Shown here: positions 1 through 10,528 of the stretch, piece after piece
How the letters are laid out: each line of letters starts with the position of its first letter
How positions within the stretch are numbered: the stretch's first letter is position 1
IMG/VR virus record: IMGVR_UViG_3300030380_003439
Location: 1-37,933 of that record
Source: a virus
Reading direction: 5' to 3' (one strand)
DNA length: 37,933 nt
Notes under the pieces: generated by a model
The model's database searches: none
What the model was told of the DNA's origin: nothing
Seen by the model: only the letters and a program-made list of their open reading frames with translations
Program-made: the position numbers and the translations under genes

Positions 1-69
1 GGACCAACTGGTGGAACTGGACCTACTGGATCAACAGGACCGACAGGACCTACAGGACCAACTGGTGGC
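1..69 (+). repeat. Collagen-like GPT-triplet coding repeat
   Basis: Degenerate 9-base repeats of the type GGA-CCA-ACT encode Gly-Pro-Thr triplets, with a few Gly-Gly-Thr and Gly-Ser-Thr. The repeat runs off the left edge, so the full length is unknown. Codons vary at third positions, which suggests selection on the protein and not recent DNA slippage. Confidence 0.8.
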
Positions 70-471
70 TTTACAACAAACTCAAATGCACAAGTAAATA
101 GTTTAGGTGTTGGCACAGCAGCATCAGGAACCGCTGGGGAAATTCGAGCAACTAACAACGTAACAGCATTTTATTCCGATTCTCGTTTAAAAGATTTTGA
201 AGGACCAATAGATAATGCTTTGGACAAAGTAAAAGCATTAAGCGGTTATTATTTTAAAGAAAATGAAGTAGCAAAATCACTTGGATATGATAACAATCAA
301 AGACAAGTTGGTTTATCAGCACAAGAAGTACAAGCTGTTTTACCAGAAGTTGTTACTGAAGCTCCAATAGACGATAAGTATTTAACAGTATGGTATGACA
401 AATTAGTACCCCTTTTAGTACAAGCAATTAAAGAATTAAAAAATGAAGTTGACGAAATAAAAAAAGGTTAA
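1..471 (+). CDS. Tail fibre C-terminal part with collagen-like repeats and S74 chaperone domain (5' partial)
   Basis: The frame is open from the first base, so the gene starts upstream of the window; 156 residues are visible. Residues 1-23 are collagen-like Gly-X-Y triplets (mostly GPT). A short linker follows, then an intramolecular chaperone domain of the Peptidase S74 family from about residue 58 to the end. The S74 signature SDSRLK (S59 to K64, the same five-residue Ser-Lys spacing as known S74 dyads) and the GLSAQEVQAVLPEV segment are visible. In this family the domain helps trimerise the fibre and then cleaves itself off before the Ser. The C-terminus is a Lys/Glu-rich helix typical of the trimeric stalk. 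It is followed 9 bases later by a fibre-like gene, the same order as the second S74 gene at 5009. Confidence 0.88.
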   Translation, partial: GPTGGTGPTGSTGPTGPTGPTGGFTTNSNAQVNSLGVGTAASGTAGEIRATNNVTAFYSDSRLKDFEGPIDNALDKVKALSGYYFKENEVAKSLGYDNNQRQVGLSAQEVQAVLPEVVTEAPIDDKYLTVWYDKLVPLLVQAIKELKNEVDEIKKG

Positions 472-480
472 AAAATTTTT

Positions 481-1101
481 ATGACGATTGTTAGTAGTGG
501 TGCAATTAGTATTAATTCCCTCGTAGGTGAATACGGGGGGTCTGCTCCTCATGCAATGAATGAATATTATAGAGGTGGCTCATTAGTTGCAAACCACTCC
601 AATAACGCAAATGTACCGACATCAGGACAAATATCATTAGATGATTTTTATGGAGCAAATAATACAAGCCCAGCTCCGACAGTTTATAGTTATAGTATGA
701 CTAGTGGTACTCAAGGTGGAAATTTCCCTGACAAGGGATTTGATACTGGTGTAGTCGCTACTTTTGGTTCATTAAGCAATAACCCTCAATCTGTTGCATT
801 TTCAAGTGGTTTTAATCCAACTATTAAGAGATGGTCTTCAGATCAATCTCTTACTAAAGTAGGAGCTGTACTTGTTAATATGTTCTTAACTGTTTCTGGC
901 AATGTTGCTAATAGTGGTTGGACAAGTTTATCAATACCTGGAGCTATGACTAGTCCTAATAACGGCACACTCACTTTAAATAGATCAGCAGCAACTTATC
1001 AGAGTCCCTCACAAGGCTTTACTGATACAACTTGGCAGTGGAGCGCTGTTGCTTCTCAATTTGTATCAGGTGTCACAGGAACAGTAACTATAACCGAATG
1101 A
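481..1101 (+). CDS. Putative tail fibre/adhesin with YGGS-type N-terminal module
   Basis: 206 aa. The N-terminal ~58 residues hold a module with IS-N-LVGEYGGS, NEYYRGGSLV and a VPTSGQISLDDFYGA end; a recognisably related module begins the glycine-rich protein at 5986. The rest is Ser/Thr/Gly/Asn-rich, without charged clusters, as in beta-structured receptor-binding tips. Each of the two proteins with this module follows directly after an S74 fibre gene, so it probably marks attachment to, or assembly beside, the fibre. No Shine-Dalgarno sequence is visible before the ATG, which sits 9 bases after the previous stop, so reinitiation is possible. The tail role is inferred from context and composition, not from a named family. 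Confidence 0.6.
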   Translation: MTIVSSGAISINSLVGEYGGSAPHAMNEYYRGGSLVANHSNNANVPTSGQISLDDFYGANNTSPAPTVYSYSMTSGTQGGNFPDKGFDTGVVATFGSLSNNPQSVAFSSGFNPTIKRWSSDQSLTKVGAVLVNMFLTVSGNVANSGWTSLSIPGAMTSPNNGTLTLNRSAATYQSPSQGFTDTTWQWSAVASQFVSGVTGTVTITE

Positions 1102-1454
1102 TTTTAGAATATGAAAAAAAACAATCTGTTTATGCAGAAAATGCTTGTGAGCATATAGTTAACGGTGTTATTCGTTTAGATGATTTAATACGAACTGATT
1201 ATATACCTACAAACTTTTCAGCAGAGCCTAAAAACTTTTTGTTAAGAGACGGTCACGTTGATTGGGATAAAATGCATTATGATTTTGAATTAAAAATACA
1301 CGAAGAATGGCTACAGGAACTTGGATATAGCACAGACAATTATTATGTTAATTTTACAACACATGAAATAATAGACAGAAGAAAAGAAAAATTTGAATAT
1401 CATCTTAATAATTTTGATGAAGAAAAAGAGGCAATAGAAAGCGAGAGTATATAA
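1098..1454 (+). CDS. Hypothetical acidic protein
   Basis: 118 aa, starting at the ATG that overlaps the previous stop (ATGA), which implies translational coupling. The protein is acidic and hydrophilic with many Glu, Asp and Tyr; the last 40 residues look helical and Glu/Lys-rich. No signal peptide, membrane segment or motif is recognised. Its position between fibre genes suggests a tail-associated or fibre-assembly (chaperone-like) role, but this is only context. Base composition here is markedly AT-rich, like the next five genes. Confidence 0.6.
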   Translation: MILEYEKKQSVYAENACEHIVNGVIRLDDLIRTDYIPTNFSAEPKNFLLRDGHVDWDKMHYDFELKIHEEWLQELGYSTDNYYVNFTTHEIIDRRKEKFEYHLNNFDEEKEAIESESI

Positions 1455-2162
1455 ATGTCAATAAAATACGAGTTTAATGCTAAAGATCCTTCGTGGTATA
1501 TGAATATTGATGCTTTATTTGAAATAACAATAGTATCTGGTGATACGGGTAAAGTTATAGAACGAGATTCAATGGAAGATGTACTAAAACCTGAAAGCAT
1601 TGAATATGATACTGAAAGCAATAAAGTTTTTATTAGAACTAACAGATTATCATTAATTCAAGGTAAAGTGCAAACAACTTCATATTGGAATGATAATATA
1701 ACTGAAACTGATGTTGAAAGAATGTTAGTTTTAAATGCAAACGATAAAGTTAAAAATGGTGATTTTACTGAAAGTACATTAGCTGAATCTGTTGCTAATA
1801 ATAAATATATTTTTACATATAAGTTTGGCGCAGATTATGATGTTATCAGTCCTAATTCAAATAGATATTTACTAGCGACAAATCAAAAAATAGAAGCCCT
1901 TGAAGATGACACAAGATTGTTTTGTCTTTTAGCTAAAGATAATAATTTTGACATAGATGTTTTAGATATTTCTGTGGGAGAAACAAAAACAATTAACCAA
2001 GATTACAGTTCAAACTCAACAAAATATATTTTCTTTACTCAAAATTGTACTGTAGGTGAAATTGCAATTAATCAATATTCATGTAAAAAATTTACAAGCA
2101 ACTCTATTGAAGTGCAAAATACATCAGATAAAATTTTAAGAATATTTTTAATATCAAGGTAG
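1455..2162 (+). CDS. Hypothetical protein, possibly virion-associated
   Basis: 235 aa, starting immediately after the previous stop. The sequence is rich in Asn, Ser, Asp and Ile with alternating hydrophobic residues, suggesting beta-sandwich structure, for example a C-terminal stretch with VGEIAINQY and ILRIFLISR. There is no signal peptide or membrane helix and no recognised catalytic motif. Context between fibre genes and the Coq4-like gene makes a tail accessory or carbohydrate-binding role possible; I cannot assign a function. Confidence 0.6.
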   Translation: MSIKYEFNAKDPSWYMNIDALFEITIVSGDTGKVIERDSMEDVLKPESIEYDTESNKVFIRTNRLSLIQGKVQTTSYWNDNITETDVERMLVLNANDKVKNGDFTESTLAESVANNKYIFTYKFGADYDVISPNSNRYLLATNQKIEALEDDTRLFCLLAKDNNFDIDVLDISVGETKTINQDYSSNSTKYIFFTQNCTVGEIAINQYSCKKFTSNSIEVQNTSDKILRIFLISR

Positions 2163-2166
2163 TTAT

Positions 2167-3000
2167 ATGTGGAATCCAATAAAAATAACAAAATCATTAA
2201 AAGACATAGTTAATTTTTATACTGTTGATTATGAACATCAAAACGAAAACGAAAAGTTAGGTGTTCCTGTCACAACATTATATAGAGAAATGCAATTTCC
2301 GTTTGGTATTATGATGATGAATAAAGTTACTCAAACAACTTTAGGACAAGATGTTGTATGGGGTAGAAAACATAACGATAAAGAGTACGTTGAAAATAAA
2401 GTTTTACCAATATTAATGGACAAAAAATATTTAGCTTCATTACCTGAAGGAACAGTAGGCAAAGAGTATTATAAAATTTGTGCGAATTTTGGAATTGAAA
2501 CTCTTTACAATCAAAGATTTAAAGATGAAGAAGTCAAATCTCGTCTTGATGTTGTAAGAACAAATTTATCTCGTCATACAGTAGTTTCTCACGATATCTT
2601 ACATACATTGTTTAAATACAATACTCATGCACTTGGTGAAGCTTTAATTCAAGAAGTCACAGGACATCTTTTAGACTACAAGCCTTCTAAAATAATTGGA
2701 TTTTTTATTCTCTTAGCGGTTGCAAGAACAACCAAAGATAAAGAAGTTTGGAAAGTCTACAAAGAATGTAAAGAAGTTTTGCAAAAGTGTAAAAAAGAAA
2801 TTGGTTATCGTAGCCCATTAGATTTTTTAGAGAGTGATTTAGAAGAAGTAAGGCAGAAATTTAATATTGGAGAAGTACCGCTTTATGAAAAATTTGAAAA
2901 AAAATATCACAATTATTTTTATCCTGACTCTTGTCGTAGTATAGAAAAATATGTTCACGCAATAAACGAAAAAAAAGAAAGTAGGTTAGAAGAAATATGA
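2167..3000 (+). CDS. Coq4-like protein (ubiquinone biosynthesis family)
   Basis: 277 aa. The central region carries the hallmark of the Coq4 family, HDxxH followed by 11 residues and Glu: H142-D143-I-L-H146 then E158 in the segment HDILHTLFKYNTHALGEA. Upstream are LPEGTVGKEYY and a basic helix with R136 just before the motif, in the family's usual order. Cellular Coq4 binds a divalent metal through this motif and acts on the ubiquinone head group (oxidative decarboxylation at ring carbon C1 in recent work), at a membrane. At 277 residues the length is close to that of cellular Coq4. The gene overlaps by four bases a small membrane protein gene, which is followed by a 2OG-Fe(II) oxygenase gene. 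The family call rests on the motif and the flanking pattern; the substrate in the phage is unknown. Confidence 0.72.
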   Translation: MWNPIKITKSLKDIVNFYTVDYEHQNENEKLGVPVTTLYREMQFPFGIMMMNKVTQTTLGQDVVWGRKHNDKEYVENKVLPILMDKKYLASLPEGTVGKEYYKICANFGIETLYNQRFKDEEVKSRLDVVRTNLSRHTVVSHDILHTLFKYNTHALGEALIQEVTGHLLDYKPSKIIGFFILLAVARTTKDKEVWKVYKECKEVLQKCKKEIGYRSPLDFLESDLEEVRQKFNIGEVPLYEKFEKKYHNYFYPDSCRSIEKYVHAINEKKESRLEEI

Positions 3001-3206
3001 CATGGAATTTTCCTTTATTAAGAAAATTAATTAACTTTTACAAAAATTACGGATTAATTAATACAATTCTATTTGTAATCTTTGTATTCTTAGGAACTAA
3101 AATAATAATTATTAATGGGTTTATTTATGCTGCTAACTTTCTATTTGGTTTCGGTTGGAAGTATGCTCCTGTTCTAGATTATTTAAATTTAATGGTTTAT
3201 TTATGA
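2997..3206 (+). CDS. Small membrane protein
   Basis: 69 aa. One strong hydrophobic segment at about residues 18-38 is followed by a second, aromatic-rich hydrophobic stretch at about 40-56, so one or two membrane helices are likely. Its ATG overlaps the stop of the Coq4-like gene and its stop overlaps the ATG of the oxygenase gene (ATGA at both ends). The three proteins are therefore likely made together, and this one could anchor a membrane complex. A holin is an alternative, but the lysis genes seem to be at 19823-20547. Confidence 0.6.
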   Translation: MTWNFPLLRKLINFYKNYGLINTILFVIFVFLGTKIIIINGFIYAANFLFGFGWKYAPVLDYLNLMVYL

Positions 3207-3772
3207 AATTAATTACGTCAACAACAGATAAAACAAAAGCAGAATTTACACAAAGTAATAACTTTTTTACTCAAGAAGAATTACATCAGATACAAAATAT
3301 AATTGATAAAATAGAATTTCAAAAAGCTACTACACAAAATTCTAATAGTGATGTTAGAAATTCTAAAATTAAATGGTTATATGAAAACTCAGAAACAAAG
3401 TTTTTATTTGAAAAATTAGGAATGTTAGCAGTTACTGTTAATAATCAATTTTATAACTTTAAATTAACTGATTTAGCAGAAGCTGTGCAATACACAGTTT
3501 ATGAACCTGATATGCATTATACCTGGCATGTAGATAGTGGAGTTGAATCATTATTACCTAGAAAATTAAGTATAACAGTACAGCTTTCAAATCCAGATGA
3601 ATATGAAGGTGGTGATTTACAAATATGGACTGGAGGAGCACCAAAAAATGCTCCTAGGGAACAAAACTGTGCTGTTTGTTTTCCAAGTTTTAGATTACAT
3701 AGAGTTACACCAGTTACTAAAGGAATAAGAAAATCATTAGTAATTTGGGTTGGTGGACCTTCATTTAAATAA
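3203..3772 (+). CDS. 2OG-Fe(II) oxygenase, prolyl-hydroxylase/PKHD type
   Basis: 189 aa. The iron and cosubstrate ligands of the double-stranded beta-helix dioxygenases are visible: H109-x-D111 (WHVDSG), H166 (FRLHRVTPV) and R176 ten residues later (GIRKSLVIW). A conserved YEGGDLQIW strand lies between them, typical of PKHD/PiuC and prolyl 4-hydroxylase-like enzymes. Such enzymes hydroxylate protein side chains or small molecules using O2 and 2-oxoglutarate. I chose the ATG that overlaps the preceding stop. The gene is last in the AT-rich block before a new promoter. Candidate substrates are the collagen-like fibre at 1-69 or a product of the Coq4-like pathway; neither is shown. Confidence 0.88.
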   Translation: MKLITSTTDKTKAEFTQSNNFFTQEELHQIQNIIDKIEFQKATTQNSNSDVRNSKIKWLYENSETKFLFEKLGMLAVTVNNQFYNFKLTDLAEAVQYTVYEPDMHYTWHVDSGVESLLPRKLSITVQLSNPDEYEGGDLQIWTGGAPKNAPREQNCAVCFPSFRLHRVTPVTKGIRKSLVIWVGGPSFK

Positions 3773-3779
3773 CAAATTG

Positions 3780-3809
3780 TTGTAAATTTGAATTGTTTAG
3801 TGATAGAAT
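3780..3809 (+). promoter_or_regulatory. Sigma70-like promoter of the virion module, with inverted repeat over the -35
   Basis: TTGTAA (3780-3785), an 18-base spacer and TAGAAT (3804-3809). The inverted repeat CAAATT-N6-AATTTG at 3773-3790 covers the -35 box and could be an operator. The first gene with a good ribosome binding site downstream starts at 3835. Inferred from sequence only. Confidence 0.55.
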
Positions 3810-3834
3810 GATCTGCGAAATAGAAGGAAGAAAA

Positions 3835-4272
3835 ATGTTAGGATTTCACCCATTAGGTACGCAAACTTTTAGCAGCGCACTACCTTTTGTTGATATACAG
3901 GCAACAACAAATTTAGTGAGCACAGCAATAGGAAGTGCTGTGTCTAATCCAACAGTTGTTATATCAAGCGCTAATTTAGAGATGACCGCGGCCCAAGGAT
4001 CGGTGACCGGGAGTCAACTCCCAATAATCGCATTTCCTAGCGGAAATGAGTTAGCAGCGGGAATCAATAGCGTTGCACCCTTTACATGGGCTCAAGTTAG
4101 TGATACAACTAATGAAACATGGTCTCAAGTCAGTCAAGCTAGTAGTGAAACTTGGACGGAAGTAAGTGATACAACTAATGAAACATGGTCTCAAGTCAGT
4201 CAATCTAGTAGTGAAACTTGGACGGAAGTAGATGATTCAACTGGTGGTAGTGAAACCTGGAGTAAAATATAA
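3835..4272 (+). CDS. Tail-associated protein with tryptophan repeats
   Basis: 145 aa. I chose the ATG at 3835 because AAGGAAG lies just upstream, in preference to in-frame starts further upstream that overlap the promoter. The N-terminal half is Ser/Ala/Val-rich with little charge. The C-terminal half is a run of Trp-centred repeats such as ETWSQVSQ, ETWTEVSD and ETWSKI, about 11 residues apart. Two of these pairs come from a 66-bp tandem duplication. Trp repeats of this kind occur in marine phage tail proteins and may make carbohydrate- or fibre-binding strands; that role is inference. The stop shares its last base with the next ATG. Confidence 0.65.
   Translation: MLGFHPLGTQTFSSALPFVDIQATTNLVSTAIGSAVSNPTVVISSANLEMTAAQGSVTGSQLPIIAFPSGNELAAGINSVAPFTWAQVSDTTNETWSQVSQASSETWTEVSDTTNETWSQVSQSSSETWTEVDDSTGGSETWSKI
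4099..4230 (+). repeat. 66-bp tandem duplication in the Trp-repeat gene
   Basis: Two adjacent 66-base units, 4099-4164 and 4165-4230, differ at one position (GCT versus TCT, Ala to Ser). Each encodes two Trp repeat modules. The near identity, including third codon positions, points to a recent in-frame duplication. A diverged part-unit precedes it and another follows it. Confidence 0.9.
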
Positions 4273-5009
4273 TGGCATCAACATATTCGGATAGATTAAA
4301 AATAGAACTTATTGGAGACGGAGAACAGTCAGGTTCTTGGGGTACTACAACTAATAACAATTTATCACAATCTTTAGAGCAAGCAATATCTGGAGTATTG
4401 CCTATTACAACTAATGGTAATTCTACTCTAACATTAACAACAGGCAGTGGTCCACAGGCACAAGCTGAAAATCAATCTAGACAAGCAGCAATTGTGTTTC
4501 ACAGTGCTGATCAAAACTGCACTGTTACTTTTCCTGATGTAGAAAAAACATATTTTTTACGTAACGCTAATACAGCATACAGAATTACAGTAACGGATGG
4601 AACTGACACTTTTGTATTAGAACCAAATAGAAGTTATTATTTAGTTCATGATGACACAGCAACTAGTGCTTTTACAGGTGCAAAATCATGGTACGAATTA
4701 GAAACAAGCGGTGGAACATGGATTGAAAAAACATCTGCGTACACAGCATTTGCTGGAGATAATATTTTTGTAGATACAAGTGGTGGTGCAGTGACTGTAA
4801 CACTACCGGCATCACCATCACAAGGTGATGAGGTTTCTTTTGTAGATTCAGAAGGAACATTTGATACTAATGCACTAACCGTAGAACCTGGAAGTGAAAA
4901 AATTATGGCACAAACAGCAGGTGATGAAATGGTGGTGGCAACAGAGAGCGCTGGATTTACACTGGTGTATCAAGATTCAACTTTTGGATGGAGGTTTAAG
5001 GATCACTAA
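4272..5009 (+). CDS. Tail fibre protein
   Basis: 245 aa. It begins with STYSDRLKIELIGDGEQSG and SWGTTTNNNL, an N-terminal module I recognise from marine phage fibre proteins. The middle is a beta-rich Thr/Asn/Gly region. The C-terminal ~85 residues (from about NIFVDTSGGAVTVTLPASP through TESAGFTLVYQDSTFGWRF) resemble the tip or collar of short fibre proteins. There is no S74 chaperone in this protein; the next gene supplies one. Start and stop overlap the neighbours by one base (TAATG), implying coupled translation. Confidence 0.7.
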   Translation: MASTYSDRLKIELIGDGEQSGSWGTTTNNNLSQSLEQAISGVLPITTNGNSTLTLTTGSGPQAQAENQSRQAAIVFHSADQNCTVTFPDVEKTYFLRNANTAYRITVTDGTDTFVLEPNRSYYLVHDDTATSAFTGAKSWYELETSGGTWIEKTSAYTAFAGDNIFVDTSGGAVTVTLPASPSQGDEVSFVDSEGTFDTNALTVEPGSEKIMAQTAGDEMVVATESAGFTLVYQDSTFGWRFKDH

Positions 5010-5986
5010 TGGCAACTTTTACATACGAATCGTTAAAGAATAAATTTTTAAACCCAACCGTTAAAGGTAATTTAGACTTACTTGATGATGGTGGCATTAT
5101 TAAAATTGGTGCTGACGATGATTTACAATTAACACATTCTGGTTCTGCTGGTACAATTACAAACGATCCAGGTGATTTAACTTTTGATGTCGCTGGAGAT
5201 ATAGTTTTAGATGCTGACGGTGGTGATGTTATATTAAAAGATGGTGGAACAGAAATTGGAAGATTTGCTAATTCAAGTTCTGATTTAGTAATTAAGTCCG
5301 CTGTGTCCGATAAAGACATGTTGTTAAAAGGCAACGATGGCGGTTCTGAAATAACTGCATTAACTCTTGACATGTCTGCTGCAGGAGCTGCTACGTTTAA
5401 CAACACTGTAACTGCTAATGCTGGAATAATTGTAGATAACATAACGATTGATGGAACAGAGATAGATCTATCATCTGGTACTCTAACAATTGATGTTGCT
5501 GATAATATAACATTAGATGCTGATGGCGGTAATATAAATCTTAAAGATGATGGAACTGAGTTTGGTTCTTTATCTAATTCCTCAAGTGATTTTGTAATCA
5601 CTTCTGCTGTTCAAGATAAAGACATTATATTTAAAGGCGATGATGGTGGTTCAGCTATCACAGCACTAACTCTTGACATGTCCGCGGCCGGCGCTGCAAC
5701 ATTTAATAACGAAGTTACAGCATTCTCTGACGAACGATTAAAAACAGATATAAAAACTATTGACAACGCATTAAGCAAAGTATGTGACATGCGTGGTGTA
5801 TACTTTAACAGGGACGGTGCAGCAAGGACCGGGGTTATCGCACAAGAGGTACAAAAAATCTTACCTGAAGTAGTACACGACAAACAAGAATACTTAAGTG
5901 TAGCTTATGGCAACATGGTTGGTGTTCTTATCGAAGCAATCAAAGAGCTTAAGAAAGAGGTTGAAACACTAAAGGAGTCTAAGTAA
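5009..5986 (+). CDS. Tail fibre/spike with internal repeats and S74 chaperone
   Basis: 325 aa. Residues ~20-235 form a repetitive beta-rich shaft: a module with VAGDIVLDADGGDVILKDGGT, SSSDLVIKSA and GGSEITALTLDMSAAGAATF appears twice, at about 62-132 and 164-233. The S74 intramolecular chaperone follows, with S240-D-E-R-L-K245 and GVIAQEVQKILPEVV. Self-cleavage before S240 would release the last ~85 residues, including the C-terminal helix IKELKKEVETLKESK. The protein is homologous over the S74 part to the partial gene at 1-471. One-base stop/start overlaps join it to both neighbours. Confidence 0.88.
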   Translation: MATFTYESLKNKFLNPTVKGNLDLLDDGGIIKIGADDDLQLTHSGSAGTITNDPGDLTFDVAGDIVLDADGGDVILKDGGTEIGRFANSSSDLVIKSAVSDKDMLLKGNDGGSEITALTLDMSAAGAATFNNTVTANAGIIVDNITIDGTEIDLSSGTLTIDVADNITLDADGGNINLKDDGTEFGSLSNSSSDFVITSAVQDKDIIFKGDDGGSAITALTLDMSAAGAATFNNEVTAFSDERLKTDIKTIDNALSKVCDMRGVYFNRDGAARTGVIAQEVQKILPEVVHDKQEYLSVAYGNMVGVLIEAIKELKKEVETLKESK

Positions 5987-10102: not shown

Positions 10103-10528
10103 ATGGATGACATAAATGACATACTAGACGTTATCGATTTGTACAAAGATGACTATCCGATATGGCAGAACAATAAAGTCAAAGAAATATTTTACCACAT
10201 ATACCCATCATTAATGTTAGGACAATGTAAAGTCCACAAAGACGAAGATGGTTTATATGGTTATAGAAACTGGGCATTCTTAAGTAAAGAAGCCGAGCAA
10301 AGATTTTTAGAAACTAGAGAGATTGGTTTCAATGATTGGCAAAGTGGAGAAAATCTATGGGTCATTGATTCTATCTTTAAAAGGAAACATAACGAGGCTA
10401 TGCTATACTACAGAACTTTCTTCACACACTTATTAGGCATTGGTAAACCAGTCCAATGGTTGAGGTTAGCACCTAACGGTTTAATACGTAGTCACGTCAA
10501 GCTTACAACTAGAGAGTATCATCTGTAA
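10103..10528 (+). CDS. HlyC-like acyltransferase homologue lacking the catalytic His
   Basis: 141 aa, about the length of RTX-toxin-activating lysine acyltransferases (HlyC/RTX_C; GNAT-like fold). The order of conserved segments matches that family: GYRNWAFLS (HlyC has YCSWANLS), then FNDWQSGENLWVIDSI (HlyC DWTSGDRKWFIDWI), then the YR-FFTHLLG and WLRLAPNG end. The aspartate of the family active site is present at D89. The N-terminal catalytic His, expected about 36 residues before W57 in a PLH motif, is replaced by PIWQNN (W21). So the fold is likely kept but acyl transfer may be lost or altered. No Shine-Dalgarno is visible. In the family the enzyme moves an acyl chain from ACP to a toxin lysine. 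Confidence 0.6.
   Translation: MDDINDILDVIDLYKDDYPIWQNNKVKEIFYHIYPSLMLGQCKVHKDEDGLYGYRNWAFLSKEAEQRFLETREIGFNDWQSGENLWVIDSIFKRKHNEAMLYYRTFFTHLLGIGKPVQWLRLAPNGLIRSHVKLTTREYHL

Follow-up and report, generated by a model that had tools for sequence, protein, structure and literature searches.

Why would a marine phage carry, between its tail-fibre genes, a gene resembling Coq4, a protein of ubiquinone synthesis? The question is raised by an open frame in the window (the whole stretch of DNA analysed here, 37,933 bases of marine virus record IMGVR_UViG_3300030380_003439). The frame lies at 2167–3000 on the plus strand, has an ATG start codon and a TGA stop codon, and encodes a 277-amino acid (aa) protein. 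Reading frames run off both ends of the stretch, and the virus record is probably incomplete. A sequence-only reading had called the product a phage-encoded Coq4 homologue, citing a complete HDxxH-x11-E metal-site motif and the EGTVGKEYY segment before it. Both are exactly as it described (H142-D143-I-L-H146-x11-E158, preceded by 94-EGTVGKEYY-102).

Assignment to the Coq4 family

The window protein alone scores 24.2 bits against PF05019, the Pfam model for Coq4, which has a gathering cut-off of 22.9 bits. All 22 of its aligned relatives match this model (best E value 2.1e-9), and the cut-off is exceeded in each of the six contigs tested. The nearest viral relatives are located on 16 contigs, and broader searches recover viral relatives down to approximately 27–30% identity. 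In a set of 28 viral sequences with identity as low as 27%, the putative ligands H142, D143, H146, and E158 are invariant, as are T96-V97-G98, N133, H137, Y151, T153, G157, and Q162. The four ligands align with the invariant H, D, H, and E of the cellular Coq4 set.

A phmmer search of the PDB with the single window protein gave no match, but profiles did match: a profile of the viral proteins found 3msq (a putative ubiquinone biosynthesis protein from Nostoc) with an E value of 2e-4. A 27-protein bacterial Coq4 profile found 6e12 at 1e-28 and 3msq at 1e-26. When the 28-member viral profile was aligned with these 27 bacterial proteins using hhalign, the match had a probability of 99.8% and an E value of 1.3e-28 over 222 columns, indicating that homology to cellular Coq4 spans the whole domain and extends beyond the motif.

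The predicted fold agrees with this assignment. An AlphaFold model based on a 28-row alignment has a pLDDT of 81.9 and a pTM of 0.81 (11 close sequences gave a pLDDT of 42, an effect of alignment depth that the 28-row alignment remedied). Comparison using Foldseek and VIA-align shows approximately 204 residues of the model aligned with 6e12 (Z 18.7) and 3msq (Z 17.8), the two solved Coq4-family structures. These are the only convincing matches, as the next-best chain has a Z score of 3.5. No fold match to viral Coq4 was found in BFVD at E ≤ 0.001. The fold domain covers approximately residues 1–236 and is followed by a C-terminal extension that is modelled with low confidence from residue 252.

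A chance motif is ruled out by the combination of profile and fold evidence. The homologue proposed by the sequence-only reading is thus borne out by two of the checks it had named, an HMM search and a structural comparison, and we regard membership in the Coq4 family as settled on the basis of these profiles and the model. Viral coq4 is a real and widespread gene, and dN/dS values of 0.07–0.35 (from a codon comparison of unsaturated pairs) indicate that it is under purifying selection.

A virus-only branch

When the 28 viral proteins were placed in a tree with 49 cellular ones, a single branch set all of the viral sequences apart; this branch has full SH-aLRT support and is 2.57 changes per site long (a rough depth, as the tree is a quick build with long branches). 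The viral relatives form one virus-only branch far from the sampled bacterial Coq4 proteins. Recent capture from sampled hosts is unsupported, given this single deep branch and the lack of Coq4 in SAR11 (discussed below). What is new is a virus-borne Coq4 branch that is absent from PHROGs (no match for any viral member), from 50,697 phage records (zero matches), and from the papers found: a literature search with Coq4 and phage terms returned no relevant paper and no report of a phage Coq4. Patterns drawn from the viral proteins also gave no relative when genome contigs were scanned. A related idea, that of phages touching ubiquinone synthesis, is found in a report of ubiG in Baltic Sea viruses (PMC9301287). 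UbiG is a methyltransferase, unlike Coq4, and that report does not mention Coq4.

Bacterial PF05019 proteins (6e12, Alr8543; 3msq; Nostoc) and the viral proteins have in common the fold over residues 1–236, the HDxxH-x11-E motif, a T-x-G-x-x-Y/GSLG-x-AY segment, a Y-x-T-x-x-x-GE-x-x-x-Q core, and a C-terminal E-V-R-x-x-x-N-I motif. Despite these similarities, viral Coq4 has just 17% and 14% identity to 6e12 and 3msq, respectively, and is distinguished by its separate branch, a longer C terminus, and a dedicated membrane partner. Eukaryotic COQ4, a zinc-dependent C1 decarboxylase (PMC7615680), has the same metal-ligand motif; the residue numbers of the viral ligands are, by coincidence, also those of the ancestral COQ4 in that study. 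In contrast to the eukaryotic protein, viral Coq4 has no mitochondrial context and no known COQ metabolon partners, and its activity is putative.

A proposed membrane partner

The feature of the locus that recurs most consistently, which the sequence-only reading missed, is the gene c1 immediately downstream (2997–3206, plus strand), identified by profile search of the loci and by hydropathy. It encodes a 69-aa single-helix membrane protein with a hydropathy peak of 2.4, in which the pattern W-[ND]-[WF]-P-[IL] is followed by a helix with K and N and then by P. No match to c1 was found in Pfam or PHROGs. In the window, the c1 start overlaps the coq4 stop as ATGA at 2997–3000, and across loci the start mostly overlaps or touches the stop.

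Neighbour clustering in 37 loci, followed by a c1 profile search, places a single-helix protein of 60–80 aa directly 3' of coq4 in 35 of the 36 readable loci (the exception is L058; L061 ends within coq4). Three of these 35 loci are outside the training set of the profile. Because identical or near-identical genes recur in some of the 36 contigs, the independent cases number fewer than 36. A search of cellular Coq4 loci, mostly with about 1.5 kb of flanking sequence, gave no c1 match. The pairing is found in unrelated phage lineages (HTVC027P-like, T5-like, and T4-like), which argues that coq4 and c1 make up a mobile cassette of two genes rather than a tail-fibre component. Nothing points more strongly to the two genes working together than the persistence of the pair while the other neighbours differ, and the two proteins would then be in physical contact. 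We propose that c1 is a membrane anchor or partner of Coq4.

Genomic context

The genes surrounding coq4 in the window form an AT-rich island (1001–4000, from the composition profile) with the order c7-c2-coq4-c1-oxygenase and a GC content of 28–30%, as compared to 33–46% elsewhere. Its left border is the C-terminal end of a tail-fibre protein (1–471, plus strand; PF13884, PHROG tail) with collagen-like GPT repeats and an S74 chaperone domain. A second S74 chaperone domain is encoded at 5009–5986, placing coq4 between tail-fibre genes. The gene c7 (1098–1454, plus strand) encodes an unknown protein of 118 aa and is conserved upstream in the window's own phage lineage only. The gene c2 (1455–2162, plus strand), identified by neighbourhood clustering, encodes a 235-aa protein of unknown function. 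It immediately precedes coq4 in 27 of the 37 loci, from HTVC027P-like, T5-like, and one T4-like context, and is missing from the redox-island context described below. The c2 protein has conserved W, C, and R positions. It has no match in phage records, PDB, or Pfam, and one weak PHROG hit was obtained for 1 of 17 members.

On the 3' side of c1 is a gene for a 2OG-Fe(II) oxygenase (3203–3772, plus strand; PF13640, E value 5e-14; phrog_61). An oxygenase of a different subfamily also follows c1 in L019, L021, and L023 (the L021 copy matches PF13640), and we consider the enzyme to be loosely associated with coq4-c1. The proximity of this gene to the GPT repeats encoded at 1–471 raises the possibility of prolyl hydroxylation of the fibre. 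Separately, a product encoded in the structural-gene region (10103–10528, plus strand) matches HlyC of the RTX acyltransferase family (PF02794, E value 3e-15) and may acylate lysines of a virion protein.

The tail-fibre location pointed out by the sequence-only reading is thus correct for the window, but it does not extend to other phages. In T4-like relatives (so labelled because their RNase H is closest to that of T4-like phages), coq4 is found among genes for a peroxiredoxin, a phosphoribosyltransferase, IscU-like and IscA-like proteins, and a glutaredoxin, while in T5-like relatives it adjoins nrdAB. Those neighbours that were scanned with family models are tail, redox/Fe-S, or nrdAB genes. 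In L040 (6862–10068) and L055 (6836–10317), the redox island also holds a small membrane protein gene along with coq4-c1. Upstream of the island are genes that are unusual for phages: one for a FecR-domain protein in L055 (194–1336), and one for a CHASE2-adenylate/guanylate cyclase in L040 (3635–5500) with a homologue in L055.

These contexts bear on whether the protein is a tail or virion component, or a tail-fibre chaperone, that has put the Coq4 fold to a new use. Such a role would fit the position of coq4 in the window and the presence of c2 before coq4 in several lineages. It is weakened, however, by the differing context between lineages, with redox/Fe-S or nrdAB genes adjoining coq4 in the T4-like and T5-like relatives, as well as by the conserved metal site and by the pairing with a membrane protein, for which a tail-fibre chaperone has no need. 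We consider a tail role to be the least probable of the explanations discussed here.

Likely host and ubiquinone pathway

The DNA polymerase A of the window's phage is 68% identical to that of 023Pt_psg01 and 56% and 53% identical to those of the Pelagibacter phages HTVC027P and HTVC023P, respectively. A large structural protein is common to this phage, 023Pt_psg01, and HTVC027P, and gene order is shared with these phages, including a reverse-strand SNF2 helicase gene after the large structural gene. This likeness to Pelagibacter phages suggests that SAR11 is the likely host.

No PF05019 match was found in 197 genomes of the SAR11 order, and none of 97 matched the UbiD model PF01977 (E. coli and Caulobacter controls were positive). 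UbiA exceeds the cut-off in 55/58 and UbiG in 56/58. Judging from these gene inventories, the SAR11 order appears to make ubiquinone without either known C1 decarboxylase, UbiD or Coq4, and the C1 decarboxylation step seems to proceed in SAR11 without a known enzyme. To such a host, a phage-borne C1 decarboxylase would add a function of consequence. In the Alphaproteobacteria as a whole, Coq4 is found in 26 and UbiD in 122 of 289 genomes. There is no significant complementarity between the two (8 of the 26 Coq4 genomes have UbiD, p 0.30), and so absence of UbiD alone is no proof of replacement by Coq4. About half of the sampled Alphaproteobacteria have neither, indicating that Coq4 is not a general bacterial solution.

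As SAR11 is without Coq4, a foreign Coq4 could also misroute precursors. Viral Coq4 might then lower or hijack host ubiquinone synthesis (as a decoy, scaffold disruptor, or precursor sink), disabling respiration or blocking superinfection. An organising role for yeast Coq4 in the CoQ complex, stated in the title of Marbois 2009 (cited in PMC12938788), would be compatible with such interference. The catalytic site is, however, fully conserved and under strong purifying selection, unlike that expected of a decoy, and the genes around coq4 in T4-like phages look like ones that would support redox metabolism. Interference is thus very unlikely.

Proposed function

In ancestral animal COQ4, zinc-dependent decarboxylation of the C1 carbon is abolished in H142A-H146A and D143A-E158A double mutants (PMC7615680). 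Because the four ligands and their surroundings are kept in the viral proteins, we favour, with a probability of roughly one half, the reading that viral Coq4 is an enzyme of Coq4 type that is tethered to the membrane and has a prenylated ring (probably a precursor of ubiquinone) as its substrate; the substrate, metal, and anchoring are predicted from sequence, the structural model, and analogy. In this proposal, Coq4, soluble by itself, would be kept at the inner membrane of the host by c1, the pocket would take a prenylated aromatic ring, and a bound metal ion would drive C1 decarboxylation as in animal COQ4. Ubiquinone synthesis would then be raised or sustained, supporting respiration during infection. 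The coq4-c1 pair may be an auxiliary metabolic cassette whose mobility has carried it between unrelated phage lineages.

The evidence for this reading consists of the PF05019 match in all relatives tested, the fold, the ligands, the dN/dS values, c1, the T4-like redox context, and the SAR11 pathway. Against it are the great divergence of the viral branch (2.57 changes per site) and bacterial PF05019 proteins that are not tied to ubiquinone: the cyanobacterial 6e12 and 3msq have no known role in it, and in Sphingobium a PF05019 gene sits between genes for a nitronate monooxygenase and an acyl-CoA dehydrogenase. In addition, the neighbours in the 37 loci, part of them scanned with family models, yielded no further gene of quinone synthesis, and SAR11 is assigned as host on indirect grounds.

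Several of these observations would also suit a protein that genuinely has the Coq4 fold, as a metalloenzyme or a lipid binder, and is tethered by c1 but has some other lipid as its target (a fatty acid, an envelope lipid, or a different prenyl compound), in which case coq4 would not be a ubiquinone gene. The closest solved relatives are cyanobacterial, and 6e12 holds oleate and magnesium; cyanobacteria make plastoquinone, not ubiquinone. The Sphingobium gene context, the wide separation of phage and cell branches, and the many Alphaproteobacteria with neither Coq4 nor UbiD point in the same direction. We consider this explanation somewhat less probable than the favoured one. It does not sit easily with the retention of the G-x-Y segment and of all four ligands in their Y/T/GE/Q setting, and the redox/Fe-S neighbourhood of the T4-like relatives suits respiration better than envelope lipids.

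An auxiliary metabolic role touching ubiquinone and respiration is plausible, given the intact catalytic site and the redox and Fe-S genes near coq4 in T4-like relatives. As looked for in an auxiliary metabolic gene, coq4 is flanked by phage genes in many contigs, is under purifying selection, and has cellular homologues. A more specific proposal, that this virus-only, two-gene membrane Coq4 supplies the C1 decarboxylation of the ubiquinone precursor in SAR11 and other hosts with neither UbiD nor Coq4, is rather doubtful. If it were true, marine phages would hold an enzyme for a step that the hosts themselves perform in some as yet unrecognised way.

Significance

The chemistry of the Coq4 family was assigned only recently (2024), and the family is now seen to include a viral branch that is present, with its dedicated membrane partner, in several marine phage lineages. 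Two questions become testable: by what route ubiquinone is completed in SAR11, where UbiA and UbiG are present but UbiD and Coq4 go undetected, and whether Coq4 and its small putative anchor together make up the least that a working member of the family requires. If quinones are what the viral protein acts on, these phages would have a direct means of influencing the electron carrier of respiration in bacteria that are very abundant in the ocean.
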